From: a virus
DNA: 22,960 bases
Direction: 5' to 3' (one strand)
IMG/VR virus record: IMGVR_UViG_3300030101_004017
Coordinates: 1-22,960 of that record
This document shows positions 2,476 to 17,549 of this stretch, in pieces. How positions within the stretch are numbered: position 1 is the stretch's first letter; each line of letters opens with the position of its first letter. The position numbers and the translations under genes were made by a program. The notes under the pieces are model-generated. The model was not told the DNA's origin. It saw only the letters and a program-made list of their open reading frames with translations, and did not search any database.

Positions 2476-2835
2476 CTATTCTATTAATTTTTGATTGCTT
2501 AATAAAGCTCTGGTTTTATTATCTATTAAATGTTTTGCTCCATTCCTATCATTATACCATCCCTCCCAAATCATCTTTTTTATTCTATAAAGCCATTTAT
2601 TCATAGTTTTTGCACATAAATGAAACTCCTCTGATTCAAGCACTCCATCATCAAAAGCTTGCTCAACTGCTTGCCAACTAAATTTGGAATATCTCGTTAT
2701 AAGTATTTGGCTTAATCGTTTAGCCAATACAACTTTCTCATCTGCTGGCTTTACTTGCCCAAGATCAACCAAAGTTTTACCGATTAAATGTAAGCACTTA
2801 ATCTCTAAATCCTTTTTATCTATTTGTTTTATCAT
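2476..2835 (-). CDS. Hypothetical helical protein, possible helicase-loading partner
   Basis: This 119-residue alpha-helical protein has no catalytic motif. It carries VLAKRLSQILITRYSKFSWQAVEQAFDDGV and then LCAKTMNKWLYRIKKMIWEGW, a pattern I associate with small proteins beside phage replication initiators, though the function is not established. It is translationally coupled (ATGA) to the initiator-like gene upstream, which supports a shared role. Confidence 0.62.
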   Translation of the reverse strand: MIKQIDKKDLEIKCLHLIGKTLVDLGQVKPADEKVVLAKRLSQILITRYSKFSWQAVEQAFDDGVLESEEFHLCAKTMNKWLYRIKKMIWEGWYNDRNGAKHLIDNKTRALLSNQKLIE

Positions 2836-3482
2836 TGTGTCTTTTTTAATAATTCTTCTGCTTGCTTTTGGCTTTGCAGATGCATATCTATTTTGCTCAT
2901 TGTTTGCTTTTTATTAAAACTCTTTTCCCTTTTTGCCCAAGTTTTTAATCTCCTGGATATTTCAAAAGTTGGCTGTAATTGCCATCTCTCTTTGGTTTTG
3001 CTTTTATTTGGCTCACTCCAATAATCATAGAAGCTCTCTAAAATACTTTTTGAATAATTAAAAGAAAAAACCTCATCTTTAAATTTTTCGCTTATAGAGA
3101 GAGTATTTTTGTTTATTCTTTCTTTTGTTATTTCTTTACTTATTTGTAGGCTATTATCCAATGTCGGTTTTACCGAAGTCGGTTTTTGTAACTTCGGTTG
3201 TTCAAAAACAAAATAATCATATCCTACAAACTTTCCTTTATTTCTAATTTGCTTTCTCTCAATATAACCAAAATTAATAAGCTCATTAAAAACAGTTCTT
3301 ATTGATGTTCTACCCTCTTTTGATACACTTACTATTCCATTTATGCTTAAATCCCAATCATTAGGCAAACTCAATAAATAACTCATTAAACCTTTTGCTT
3401 TTAAACTAATCTTTTTATCCTTAAAGATTTGATTACTAATAGTAGTATAATTCTTGTTTTTTATTACTCTTATTACTTCCAT
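2832..3482 (-). CDS. Replication initiator-like HTH protein
   Basis: This 216-residue protein starts with a winged-helix domain common in phage replication proteins: KNKNYTTISNQIFKDKKISL, then KAKGLMSYLLSLPNDWDLSI and VSKEGRTSIRTVFNELINFGYIERKQIR (shown in parts). A low-complexity linker follows. The C-terminal region (FYDYWSEPNKSKTKERWQLQ, EISRRLKTWAKRE) matches a domain seen in Bacteroidota replication proteins. It would bind the phage origin and load the host helicase. It overlaps the 119-residue protein gene as ATGA. Confidence 0.78.
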   Translation of the reverse strand: MEVIRVIKNKNYTTISNQIFKDKKISLKAKGLMSYLLSLPNDWDLSINGIVSVSKEGRTSIRTVFNELINFGYIERKQIRNKGKFVGYDYFVFEQPKLQKPTSVKPTLDNSLQISKEITKERINKNTLSISEKFKDEVFSFNYSKSILESFYDYWSEPNKSKTKERWQLQPTFEISRRLKTWAKREKSFNKKQTMSKIDMHLQSQKQAEELLKKTQ

Positions 3483-10755: not shown

Positions 10756-12531
10756 TTATATAAATCTTTCTCTTGATAAAGTTGCTTTATCAGAAACTAA
10801 AATAATGTTGTCTCCTTGTATTCTACCAGTTACATCTACTCTACTTGCTCCCATCATTGCCATTAATTTATCCAATGGACTTATTACCTCTGGATTAAAA
10901 GCACTTGTTCCACTACCCTCTCCAATTAATCCTAATGTTGGCCCTGTAACTAAACCACCCTGAGCAAATTCTGGAATTAATGAATTAAATGCTGTATTAG
11001 CTAAACCAGCTGCTCCACCTGCAATAATAGGAATTAAAAAAGGAGAAACTCCAATTGCTGGATTTTTTAATGCATTAGCAATAGCTGCTGCAACTCCCTC
11101 AGCTATTAAAGCATTAATTATTTGCTTTATTCCACTCACTACCATTTTATTAAAATCTTTAAAATTATCTGCTCCCATTTTTAATGTTTCTCCCATTGCT
11201 GTTGCAGTTTCAGATAAAGTTTGTTGTAATAATTCAGCATTTATTTGAGCCTGTGTTCTTAAATCAGCACTCCATGTAACCATATCTCCAAACCTTTCTT
11301 CTATTGGGGAAAAGCCATAAGTAAAATTAGTTTGCAATACATCTATTGCATCTGAATATTGCTTTGTTTCTTCACTTAATTCTGAAACTTTTGGAATTAA
11401 ATCATCTATTGCAACTGCTTGATCTTTATAATTTTGTTTTTTATCTTCTTGTTGTTTTGCAAATTCTTCATTTTGCTTTGCAATATTTTTTTCTAAATCT
11501 GATAACTCTCTTTGACCTGTTATCATTTGAAATATTCCCTTTCCTGTAGCTAATACTACTGCTGCTAACTTTCCCCATGTGCCTAAATGCTTAGCTATGC
11601 CTGTTCCAATTTTTACTATTAATGGTAAAAGCTTGCCAAAAGCAGTTACTAATCTTGATGTAATTGATAAGAAAGGCCCTACAATAGCAGCCCATTTAGC
11701 AAATTGAATTATATTATTTTTAGCTTCATCTGATAAGCCATTTAAAAATTTAGCTAAATCTCTTAATGAAGAAACTAAATCTTTTGCTAATGGAATTAAT
11801 ATACTTCCAAATTGAACACCCAAATCTTTTAAATCTTCTTGCAGTCTTCTTGTTTGATTAGCTAAACTATCCTGGGTACGTTCAGCATCTCCAATGGCTT
11901 TTGAGCTTTGTTGAGTTGCTAATTGAAAAGTTAAAGTGGCTTTTGCAACTCTGTCCAATTCTTTAAAAACTAAGCCTTGATCTTCTGCAAACTTTTTTAA
12001 ATCCGCTTCTGTTATTGCAATTCCTAATGATTTAATAGACTCTCTTTCTCCTAATAATGCTTTTGTTAATGCTTCTGATGCGCCTTTTGCTCCACCACTA
12101 AAATTGGTAAAACTTGCTAAATCAACTGCTAATTGATTTACCTCAGTTGACAAAGCCAATGCAGATTCCTCTGTAAAACCAAAACCAACTAATAAATCTC
12201 CTGTGCTGGAAAGTAGATCTTTTGCAGATTGCTCTGATAATCCAAAAGATTCTCTAAATGTTTGAGCAGCACTTTCTGCTTGCTCTTCAATACTGCTAAA
12301 AACTGTTCTAAATTTGCTATCAGTTTCTTCAAAATCAGATGCCATTTTTACAGCAGCAGCTCCTAAACCAACTATTGGCAAAGTAACTTTTGTAGTTAAA
12401 TCTTTACCAATGGCATTCATTTTTGAGCCAAATCTTTTTATGCTTCTTTGGGCTTTCTTCATTGCCCTATCAAAACCTCTTAAATCAGCTCCAAAAACTA
12501 TATTTAATAAACCAATGCTTTTATTTGCCAT
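10756..12531 (-). CDS. Tail tape measure protein
   Basis: This 591-residue protein sets tail length and probably travels ahead of DNA at ejection. The N-terminus is typical: ADLRGFDRAMKKAQRSIKRFGSKM, then LPIVGLGAAAVKMASDFEE and a long alpha-helical region with TQDSLANQTRRLQEDLKDLGVQFG. Hydrophobic stretches lie around residues 275-345 and in the last 130 residues (VAAAIANALKNPAIGVSPFLIPIIAGG). It ends in a glycine-rich segment (FAQGGLVTGPTLGLIGEG) common near tape measure C-termini. It is short for a siphovirus, so a short tail is expected. It overlaps the upstream frame by 11 bases. Confidence 0.92.
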   Translation of the reverse strand: MANKSIGLLNIVFGADLRGFDRAMKKAQRSIKRFGSKMNAIGKDLTTKVTLPIVGLGAAAVKMASDFEETDSKFRTVFSSIEEQAESAAQTFRESFGLSEQSAKDLLSSTGDLLVGFGFTEESALALSTEVNQLAVDLASFTNFSGGAKGASEALTKALLGERESIKSLGIAITEADLKKFAEDQGLVFKELDRVAKATLTFQLATQQSSKAIGDAERTQDSLANQTRRLQEDLKDLGVQFGSILIPLAKDLVSSLRDLAKFLNGLSDEAKNNIIQFAKWAAIVGPFLSITSRLVTAFGKLLPLIVKIGTGIAKHLGTWGKLAAVVLATGKGIFQMITGQRELSDLEKNIAKQNEEFAKQQEDKKQNYKDQAVAIDDLIPKVSELSEETKQYSDAIDVLQTNFTYGFSPIEERFGDMVTWSADLRTQAQINAELLQQTLSETATAMGETLKMGADNFKDFNKMVVSGIKQIINALIAEGVAAAIANALKNPAIGVSPFLIPIIAGGAAGLANTAFNSLIPEFAQGGLVTGPTLGLIGEGSGTSAFNPEVISPLDKLMAMMGASRVDVTGRIQGDNIILVSDKATLSRERFI

Positions 12532-12802
12532 GCTCCTCTAATTTTTTAATATATTCTGCTCTTGCTTTGAGCTTTTCATAATCTGTTTTATTTGTTTCTT
12601 TATCCCAATCAAATTGAACTAAATCTTTTAATTTCAATTGTTTTCCTTTTGGCATATGCACATTGAGCAAATAGCATGTCATCCATCTTGTTCTTTCCCA
12701 ATGTGCTTTATCCTTTAATTGATTTAACTCATAAAACCCATCCATCTTATTGTAAAAATGTCTTGGAATCATATTATAAAACTCCTCAACTTTCATGTCC
12801 AT
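12521..12802 (-). CDS. T-frame ORF of the tail chaperone (frameshift-expressed part)
   Basis: Read from its own first ATG (12802), this frame gives 93 residues (MDMKVEEFYNMIPRHFYNKM onward), ending with a charged helix. It lacks an independent ribosome-binding region, because the frame is open and protein-like upstream through WDDLEKIAFGQ. It is therefore better read as the distal half of the G-T fusion than as a separate gene. Its 3' end overlaps the tape measure start by 11 bases. Confidence 0.6.
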   Translation of the reverse strand: MDMKVEEFYNMIPRHFYNKMDGFYELNQLKDKAHWERTRWMTCYLLNVHMPKGKQLKLKDLVQFDWDKETNKTDYEKLKARAEYIKKLEEHGK

Positions 12803-13179
12803 TTGGCCAAAAGCAATTTTTTCTAAATCATCCCAAGTAAGCTCTATTTCGCTTTCTTGGGCATCTGCTTTTTTTCCTTTTTACCTCCCATCATTTTAGT
12901 AAGAATATCCATGCATCTTGATATTGCTTCCATGTCATTATCCATTGCATCAGATAAATCATCTATTGATAAGTTACATTTTTGCTTTGCTGCTCTGTAT
13001 CCATCTTCAATTCCACAATGTATTAAAATCAAAGCATCATTTAAAGTCATGTTATCTCCTATTTGATTTAATTGTGCTAATGTTGTTCCTGTTTTCATTG
13101 AATATTTTCTAAGAGCTGAAAAGCCAAATTTAATTGGATATTTTTTTTCTCCTATTTTTACAAAAGTATAATTTTCCAT
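12521..13179 (-). CDS. Tail assembly chaperone, -1 frameshift (G-T) fusion
   Basis: This is the predicted fusion product of about 219 residues: 104 codons of the upstream frame through AAG at 12868, then 115 codons in the -1 frame. After the shift the peptide continues ADAQ and then ESEIELTWDDLEKIAFGQ, and runs into the downstream ORF. I checked the relative frames by hand: the downstream frame is -1 and is open from 12880, just after a TAA at 12883-12881. Synthesis of G and G-T from one message is conserved across long-tailed phages. The T part is thought to bind the tape measure and the tube protein. Confidence 0.8.
12832..12889 (-). promoter_or_regulatory. Programmed -1 ribosomal frameshift signal
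   Basis: Reading on the minus strand there are four parts. First, an SD-like GGGAGG (12889-12884). Second, after 9 bases, the slippery heptamer A AAA AAG in correct zero-frame phase (12874-12868). Third, a 6-base spacer. Fourth, a hairpin (12861-12832) with CCCAAG/CTTGGG and AAGC/GCTT arms separated by a single A-A mismatch, and an 8-base loop. The zero-frame TAG stop (12846-12844) lies in that loop. The order and spacing resemble the dnaX-type frameshift cassette. Confidence 0.88.
12844..13179 (-). CDS. Tail assembly chaperone, short (G-type) product
   Basis: This 111-residue protein resembles phage tail assembly chaperones: a beta start (FVKIGEKKYPIKFGFSALRKYS), then LNDALILIHCGIEDGYRAAK and helices, ending in a Lys-rich tail (GGKKEKKQMPKKAK). 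The chosen start is the ATG at 13179; an in-frame GTG at 13221 would add 14 residues that do not fit the family. Near its 3' end the mRNA carries A AAA AAG, an upstream GGGAGG and a downstream hairpin, so some ribosomes should shift -1 into the next frame. Confidence 0.82.
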   Translation of the reverse strand: MENYTFVKIGEKKYPIKFGFSALRKYSMKTGTTLAQLNQIGDNMTLNDALILIHCGIEDGYRAAKQKCNLSIDDLSDAMDNDMEAISRCMDILTKMMGGKKEKKQMPKKAK

Positions 13180-13262: not shown

Positions 13263-13706
13263 TTAAGATATTGTTTGAGTTAAAGCACCAGATCCAGTAA
13301 AAGATAAAGAATAAGTTGCAGTATCCTCTGTTGGGGCTGTTACGCTGAATGATGTTAACCATGCAGTTCCCTCATAATATATATTAGAGGTCGTTCCATC
13401 AGTATTACCAAATCTTATCACAAAAGATGCTCTTGTAATAATATAACTATTTAGTAAATCATCTGCTCCATTAGTTAATGCAGTACCTCCCACATTTGTC
13501 CAAGCATAAGCTCCATCAACACTTATATCCCAGTTTCGCTGGCCTTCCATGTTTTCAGCCCAACCTGCACTCTCTTTGTTGCTTATATCTCTTGCACTAT
13601 GATTTACATTTAAAGTGCCGCTTTGAGCATAAGCAACCAAAATATTAGTGCCGCTATCATATACCTTGATATCAGTTCCATTTATTGCTGTCGTTAAATT
13701 TGCCAT
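13263..13706 (-). CDS. Major tail tube protein
   Basis: This 147-residue protein has the TP901-1/phi13-type tail tube pattern. It starts with a strand reading NGTDIKVYDSGTNILVAYAQSGTL, followed by the marker 'RDISNKESAGWAENMEGQRNWDISVDG'-type region, of which ISNKESAGW and RNWDISVDGAY are the clearest parts. A strand pair SFVIRFGNTD and a final SFSVTAPTEDTATYSLSFTGSG follow. It lies just upstream of the frameshifted tail chaperone genes and the tape measure, the standard position. It would polymerise into the tail tube. Confidence 0.87.
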   Translation of the reverse strand: MANLTTAINGTDIKVYDSGTNILVAYAQSGTLNVNHSARDISNKESAGWAENMEGQRNWDISVDGAYAWTNVGGTALTNGADDLLNSYIITRASFVIRFGNTDGTTSNIYYEGTAWLTSFSVTAPTEDTATYSLSFTGSGALTQTIS

Positions 13707-16319: not shown

Positions 16320-17549
16320 TTAAGCCTCTATCAATTTAGCAAATGCAGTTGCATTTTGACATGCATCTCCATCAACTAATGATGTTACAACTAATCTTGG
16401 AATACCTATTCCAGAATAAGTGTAAGGATCAAAAAGCATGTCCAGGCCACCAAATTGCGCCAGATGTACTTTTGAAAAATCTCCAAATAAAACGTGATCT
16501 TTATCAGCACTTCCGCTTGATGCTACATTAGAAGAAACAAAAGCAAAAAATCCATTTACTGTTTTATCTCTCATATCATATGCAGCAGATACATTTGACA
16601 CCATTGCGCTTGCTTTAATAGCTGAATAAGCATCAGCATCCATTAAATAAGCCATTCTCGCACCTTGATAAGTACCATCATTACCAATGTATGTATCTTC
16701 TAATACAGATGCAGAAGCACCACTAAAAGCAGCAGTTGATCCAGCAGCAGCATCAGCAAAAATAGATAAAGGAGCATTAGAAACATCAGCAGTATCAAGT
16801 AATGCAGTTTCCCAAGTTGCAGCAATATTTGCAGCCATGTTTCTTTGTAAAGCAGATTCAAGAGATGCATTTTGTACCATTGACTCTTGTGAAACGTTTA
16901 CAATAGAAATAATTTTCTTTGGGCTTAAAGTAACATTAGTAGTAGTACCAGTCCCATCTTGTTCTGTACCACCAGTTTCTGGTTGCCATGCAGATGTAAT
17001 TCCACCAACTACTGGGAATTTCATGTTTTCAACTCCAAAGTAAGTGTTTGCACCAGCAGATGCTAAAACTAAATTTGATTCTAATTGATCAGTAAAGCTC
17101 ATTGTTTCTACTGAGTTTTGATTAGTTGTATCTACATAATCTTGAGCTCTTGTTAAAACACATGATGGAATGCCAATACCTCTATAATTTTGGCCTGTAT
17201 AACGAGCATTTGATCTTGCTTCCTCATCCATCTCTTTATATATTCCAGTTACTTTACCACTATATGCAGCTCTTACAGCTCCTTGGAAAGTAAATGATTC
17301 TAAATCTTTATCTTTTTTAGTAGATGCTGAAACGCCAGAAACAACAGCAGCATTACGCTTTATTGATTCCATTTTTTCAGCTCTTTCAATTTTTGTATCC
17401 AAGTTATCAACCTCAGTTAAAAGGCCATCAACCTGGTCATTTTCCTCAGATGTCAGATCTCTTTCTTCTTTGGTTGCAACATCTTTAATGTTTTCCAAAG
17501 TTTCAATAATATCTGAACGCATCTCTTTTAATTCTATTGATGATTTCAT
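16320..17549 (-). CDS. Major capsid protein, HK97 fold
   Basis: This 409-residue protein forms the icosahedral shell. Residues 1-67 are a charged coiled coil (delta domain), expected to act as internal scaffold and to be removed by the protease upstream. The mature part has the HK97 pattern: an N-arm (LESFTFQGAVRAAYSG), the E-loop region near FPVVGGITSAWQPETGG, the PKKIISIVNVSQESMVQNASLESALQRNMA stretch, and the C-terminal GLDMLFDPYTYSGIG segment. The leader is A-rich without a Shine-Dalgarno sequence. A strong intrinsic terminator follows directly, consistent with higher output of this gene than of the downstream connector and tail genes. Confidence 0.95.
   Translation of the reverse strand: MKSSIELKEMRSDIIETLENIKDVATKEERDLTSEENDQVDGLLTEVDNLDTKIERAEKMESIKRNAAVVSGVSASTKKDKDLESFTFQGAVRAAYSGKVTGIYKEMDEEARSNARYTGQNYRGIGIPSCVLTRAQDYVDTTNQNSVETMSFTDQLESNLVLASAGANTYFGVENMKFPVVGGITSAWQPETGGTEQDGTGTTTNVTLSPKKIISIVNVSQESMVQNASLESALQRNMAANIAATWETALLDTADVSNAPLSIFADAAAGSTAAFSGASASVLEDTYIGNDGTYQGARMAYLMDADAYSAIKASAMVSNVSAAYDMRDKTVNGFFAFVSSNVASSGSADKDHVLFGDFSKVHLAQFGGLDMLFDPYTYSGIGIPRLVVTSLVDGDACQNATAFAKLIEA

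Follow-up and report, generated by a model that had tools for sequence, protein, structure and literature searches.

In phage lambda, low-level -1 frameshifting yields the tail assembly proteins G and GT in a ratio of about 30:1, and G binds the tape measure protein while T binds the tail tube protein (PMC5009743). A frameshifting level of about 7% has been measured in a tail-chaperone cluster, and the frameshift site of E. coli dnaX is a three-part cassette (PMC3711429) with an efficiency of about 50% (PMC5009743). A further described system concerns ribosomes that make little use of SD sequences. Bacteroidia ribosomes hold the anti-SD in a bS21/bS18/bS6 pocket, with rpsU as a clear exception that has an unusually strong SD (PMC9976891). 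A +1 frameshift is kept in 72% of the Bacteroidia prfB genes examined, and that of F. johnsoniae has a perfect SD (PMC8710568); its frameshift efficiency is low (PMC12421855).

The window analyzed here is the whole 22,960-nucleotide stretch of virus record IMGVR_UViG_3300030101_004017. A sequence-only reading had proposed that it contains a complete dnaX-like -1 frameshift cassette in a tail chaperone gene. We conclude that the locus is very probably a lambda-type G/GT -1 frameshift in which an A AAA AAG heptamer and a 6-bp hairpin core are the working parts, and in which an upstream GGGAGG is mainly a by-product of an encoded Met-Gly-Gly. The assignment to the lambda G/GT type is made because the locus combines the heptamer, a covarying stem, a T frame without a start, and a G gene located between the tail tube and tape measure genes.

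The probable G/GT locus

Two overlapping ORFs, G and T, lie between the tail tube and tape measure genes. The features of the locus, in the direction of reading, are:

13263-13706, minus strand: tail tube (major tail) protein, the upstream neighbour, with a Phage_tail_2 match
12847-13179, minus strand: gene G, zero frame, tail assembly chaperone, 111 aa from ATG 13179
12884-12889, minus strand: SD-like GGGAGG, encoding Met-Gly-Gly, 9 nt before the heptamer; candidate stimulator
12868-12874, minus strand: slippery heptamer A AAA AAG in zero phase, from the in-phase reading GGA GGT AAA AAG GAA AAA AAG CAG
12862-12867, minus strand: 6-nt spacer CAGATG, from heptamer to stem
12832-12861, minus strand: hairpin CCCAAG.A.AAGC / GCTT.A.CTTGGG, with arms at 12861-12851 and 12842-12832
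12843-12850, minus strand: 8-nt hairpin loop, containing the zero-frame TAG
12844-12846, minus strand: TAG stop codon of G, in the hairpin loop, from reading the sequence
12524-12868, minus strand: T domain, -1 frame, 115 aa counted from the re-read G of the heptamer
12521-12523, minus strand: T stop codon, at the end of the open -1 frame
10756-12531, minus strand: tape measure protein, the downstream neighbour

Each element of the cassette named in the earlier reading is present as described. The heptamer (12874-12868) is in zero-frame phase, the downstream frame is exactly -1 and open into T, GGGAGG (12889-12884) precedes the heptamer by 9 nt, and an imperfect 10-bp hairpin with an A-A mismatch begins 6 nt downstream and holds the zero-frame stop in its loop. 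The -1 frame continues uninterrupted for 351 nt from the heptamer, to 12521, and the predicted GT fusion is 219 aa long.

G is a member of the tail-chaperone family, as judged by profile and fold matches. All 25 of its homologues match phrog_2115 (tail protein), 6 of the 25 match phrog_183 (tail chaperone protein), and an AlphaFold model of G (pLDDT 84.8) matches annotated tail assembly chaperones in BFVD. A few of the homologues also have weak matches to Pfam TAC_11/12. In the PDB, neither a fold comparison with the model nor a profile search of the sequences found a credible match, and a tblastn search of phage records with G found no match. In the model, the last helix of G ends at residue 96 and is followed by Met97-Gly98-Gly99, and the C-terminal tail beyond these residues has low model confidence, like a disordered linker. 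A start at GTG 13221 was also considered for G; ATG 13179, which begins a MENYTF sequence shared with relatives, is most likely instead. The T domain matches phrog_16333 (1e-27), and this match begins upstream of the first in-frame ATG. Elsewhere in the window, the major capsid protein (16320-17549) has a single, weak match (26% identity) in 50,697 phage records, which places the phage far from sequenced isolates.

The arrangement resembles lambda G/GT in the order tail tube, G/GT and tape measure, in a heptamer near the end of G, and in a -1 frame T that lacks its own start and is predicted to be made as a GT fusion; this likeness is one of gene order, heptamer and frame. Unlike the lambda locus, the window phage and most of its relatives use A AAA AAG and have a conserved covarying hairpin 5-6 nt downstream. 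Both of these features recall E. coli dnaX, where A AAA AAG, an SD-like element about 9-10 nt upstream and a hairpin 5-6 nt downstream occur in the same order. The gene is a different one, however, and the SD part of the present cassette is not clearly kept at the codon level and may be a peptide by-product. The cassette works like that of dnaX but is not a dnaX site, because the open -1 frame gives a longer fusion here instead of a truncated product like the dnaX gamma subunit.

The heptamer by itself is little evidence, because these phages show no avoidance of A AAA AAG elsewhere in their genes (observed/expected 1.49). The ORFs of the AT-rich window contain nine such heptamers in zero phase. 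Only one of the nine, at 12874, combines a hairpin (-15.0 kcal/mol), anti-SD pairing (-11.6 kcal/mol) and a long -1 frame. A second zero-phase heptamer (2847-2841), at the end of ORF 2832-3482, has a -1 frame that stays open over 369 nt and reaches into the next gene, and it has neither a hairpin nor an SD-like element.

Heptamer and hairpin in relatives

Relatives were found by T-domain queries against IMG/VR and GTDB genome contigs. These gave 272 partly overlapping loci (some contigs are represented more than once), including the window and L103, a contig of a Flavobacteriales MAG. An in-phase X XXY YYZ heptamer precedes T in all 272. Among the 142 unique cassettes, 124 have A AAA AAG and 18 have G GGA AAG, the lambda-type heptamer. 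The stem begins 5 or 6 nt past the heptamer in 133 of the 142. On the best tree of 60 T domains the heptamer type changes six times, with at least two changes on well-supported branches, and the identity switched between A AAA AAG and G GGA AAG while the spacing and hairpin stayed. In one relative (L188, 2944-3018) the zero-frame TAA immediately follows G GGA AAG and is not near the hairpin. The earlier reading had called for related phages to be compared for all three elements. The slippery site and hairpin are conserved in this comparison, and the SD-like element is absent in several lineages.

The hairpin of the window phage is more stable than expected from its composition (z = -4.5, with none of 200 dinucleotide shuffles as good). 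Conservation is confined to the outer 6 bp (CCCAAG/CTTGGG) of the 10-bp stem, and the inner AAGC/GCTT is not generally kept. In a slip-anchored alignment of 32 sequences (A7, in which L104 is off by one), this core is paired in 98.4% of cells, compared with 84.5% when shuffled. It contains 19 double-changed cells compared with 5.7 in shuffles (0/500 shuffles as high), and slid registers of the core pair in only 10-52%. A MAFFT alignment (A6) misplaces L104, L207 and L210 and gives the same covariation picture. The arm pairs found among relatives include CCCAAG/CTTGGG, GCCAAG/CTTGGC, GCCAAC/GTTGGC, CCCAGG/CCTGGG and CCCAGC/GCTGGG. The 3' arm doubles as the code for the Thr/Ser-Trp of T, and the matching changes in the 5' arm are not demanded by that coding.

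The same comparison bears on whether T might instead be translated on its own from ATG 12802, through reinitiation or coupling once ribosomes have terminated G. An in-frame ATG is present there, and GenBank lists gp19 and gp20 of Cellulophaga phage phi39:1 as separate genes. However, 140 of the 142 cassettes lack any T-frame ATG, GTG or TTG from the preceding stop to a conserved Trp. The conserved N-terminal part of T can be made only by fusion in these cassettes because no start precedes the Trp, and their conserved Leu-Thr/Ser-Trp lies upstream of every in-frame start. The first ATG of the T frame also shifts from phage to phage, occurring 3 to 21 codons past the Trp. Separate initiation would leave the conservation of the heptamer and hairpin without a reason, and we consider it very improbable. 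Relatives that had lost the cassette elements and gave T a start of its own were looked for, and none was found among these loci.

Transcriptional slippage could also bring T into frame if RNA polymerase stutters on the 7-A run (12875-12869) in which the heptamer sits and adds an extra A to some of the mRNA. Runs of 9 A are used in this way in Thermus dnaX (PMC5009743, PMC3711429), and longer A runs occur in distant relatives from Bacteroides phages. Many relatives have only 6 A, however, and the 18 unique G GGA AAG cassettes, with 3 A, retain the phase, spacing and hairpin. Since transcriptional slippage would need neither a zero-phase heptamer nor a covarying hairpin kept at a distance of 5-6 nt, this explanation is hardly credible.

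Programmed -1 frameshifting in the tail chaperone is thus strongly supported by the conserved slippery site, spacing and covarying hairpin and by the lack of a T start before the Trp. Most ribosomes would make the 111-aa G and terminate at the TAG within the loop. The hairpin would hold up a minority while A AAA AAG occupies the P and A sites, where both lysyl-tRNAs could slip back one base, so that translation continues in the -1 frame through T and makes the 219-aa GT fusion. If the roles are those of their lambda counterparts, then G would coat the tape measure protein and a few copies of GT would recruit the tail tube protein. Two observations run counter to the frameshift reading. At 6 bp the conserved part of the stem is short, and one relative (L032, 1853-1924) has CCTAAG in place of CCCAAG in the hairpin arm, a change that preserves the stem through a U-G pair and places a TAA in the -1 frame. 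We read the latter as a broken copy or a sequencing error.

The SD-like GGGAGG

The sequence-only reading had pointed out that an SD-type stimulator would be notable in a genome whose ordinary starts lack SD sequences. The starts are indeed poor in them: GGAG/GAGG cores occur at 3 of 35 ORF starts in the window and at 2.9% of 553 starts, compared with 12% of internal ATGs, and the regions upstream of starts are A-rich. One relative lies in a Flavobacteriales MAG, and homologous T domains occur in Cellulophaga and Bacteroides phages. The SD-less, A-rich starts and these ties to Bacteroidota support, short of proof, the proposed Bacteroidota host with SD-poor translation. No 16S gene was found in the window or in the L103 MAG.

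The GGAGGT within this element is fully complementary to ACCUCC. Strong SD-like pairing (<= -7 kcal/mol) upstream of the slip site occurs in 85% of the 142 unique cassettes, compared with 0.7% of gene starts and 6.5% of internal ATGs. We rejected this frequency as a demonstration of SD function, since the encoded peptide predicts the pairing. The SD-like stretch encodes M-G-G or M-G-D, the Met is invariant in 25 aligned G homologues, and these phages use GGA more than any other Gly codon (55%). Synonymous recoding with the codon usage of the phages pairs equally well (one-sided p = 0.15 over 18 A AAA AAG clusters). Within the largest cluster, of 43 cassettes, the Gly codon of the SD core drifts among GGA (23), GGG (10), GGT (7) and GGC (3), and its synonymous difference rate (0.65) ties for the highest among the last 40 codons. 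An SD-type stimulator acting on host ribosomes is thus not supported at the codon level. Because the pairing follows from the conserved M-G-G/D peptide when Gly codons occur at their usual frequencies, GGGAGG may be for the most part a by-product of that peptide, and in some lineages it may make a real contribution. We propose that it has little effect on frameshifting or provides a lineage-specific boost.

That GGGAGG is a true stimulator is rather doubtful, and would in any case add to the -1 frameshift rather than replace it. The anti-SD of 16S rRNA would have to leave its 30S-platform pocket at the slip site, pair with GGAGGU and pull the mRNA back as in dnaX, despite its sequestration in Bacteroidota. 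The high frequency of pairing in the cassettes is compatible with this possibility, and some details of codon choice favor it. The majority Gly codon ends in a purine in 14 of 15 A AAA AAG clusters with M-G (p = 0.02 against an expected 67%), and the SD-core Gly is GGG more often than usual (7 of 15 clusters compared with 12.6%), in a set of clusters that are not fully independent. Among the 60 rows used for the tree, 36 of the 42 with A AAA AAG show SD-like pairing, as do 5 of the 18 with G GGA AAG. The difference is suggestive and corresponds to only two well-supported independent contrasts on the tree. The perfect SD at the frameshift site of F. johnsoniae prfB offers a precedent (PMC8710568).

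Against a stimulator stand, besides the recoding result and the variable Gly codon, a protein-level reason for the motif and its absence from some cassettes. In the structural model Met-Gly-Gly directly follows the last helix of G, and relatives such as L137, L104, L163, L206, L159 and L076 keep the slippery site and hairpin without strong pairing. Sequestration of the anti-SD by Bacteroidia ribosomes, where rpsU needs an unusually strong SD (PMC9976891), also argues against it. It is unlikely that the SD-like element is a real elongation-time stimulator used mainly with A AAA AAG and given up at G GGA AAG. If it were, the sequestered anti-SD would be released on a paused elongating ribosome.

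At prfB, too, recoding occurs next to an SD-like element in a lineage without SD initiation. The prfB site differs in that the shift is +1 and occurs at a stop codon, the SD is close to the P site, the gene is an autoregulated host gene, and there is no X XXY YYZ heptamer or hairpin. The Bacteroidota connection of the SD is weaker than it looked. The relatives carry GGAGG, GGTGG, GGCGG or no SD-like stretch, followed by the same slippery site and hairpin. The family is consequently a natural test bed for SD-type stimulation of frameshifting on ribosomes that hide their anti-SD.

Significance and distant relatives

No description of the frameshift in this marine phage family was found in the open-licence literature. 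This is apparently an undescribed family of marine Bacteroidota-type phages with a tail-chaperone frameshift, and it adds to the known systems of this kind one whose hairpin is backed by comparative proof. Annotations of these genomes should join G and T.

Homologous T domains preceded by a G-like gene and an A-rich shift site also occur in phi39:1 (gp19/gp20) and in Bacteroides phages F4/Bacuni_F1. These phages differ in having runs of 8 to 9 A and no evident SD. In phi39:1 (NC_021804; L024, 2586-3312) the homologous T follows an 8-A run and lies in the +1 frame relative to gp19, compared with -1 in the window phage, and the two are annotated as separate genes. The same T domain is found in two gut phages of the Bacteroides type (L025, ~1860; L026, ~2970), in which the zero-frame stop is preceded by a run of 9 A where RNA polymerase slippage is possible.
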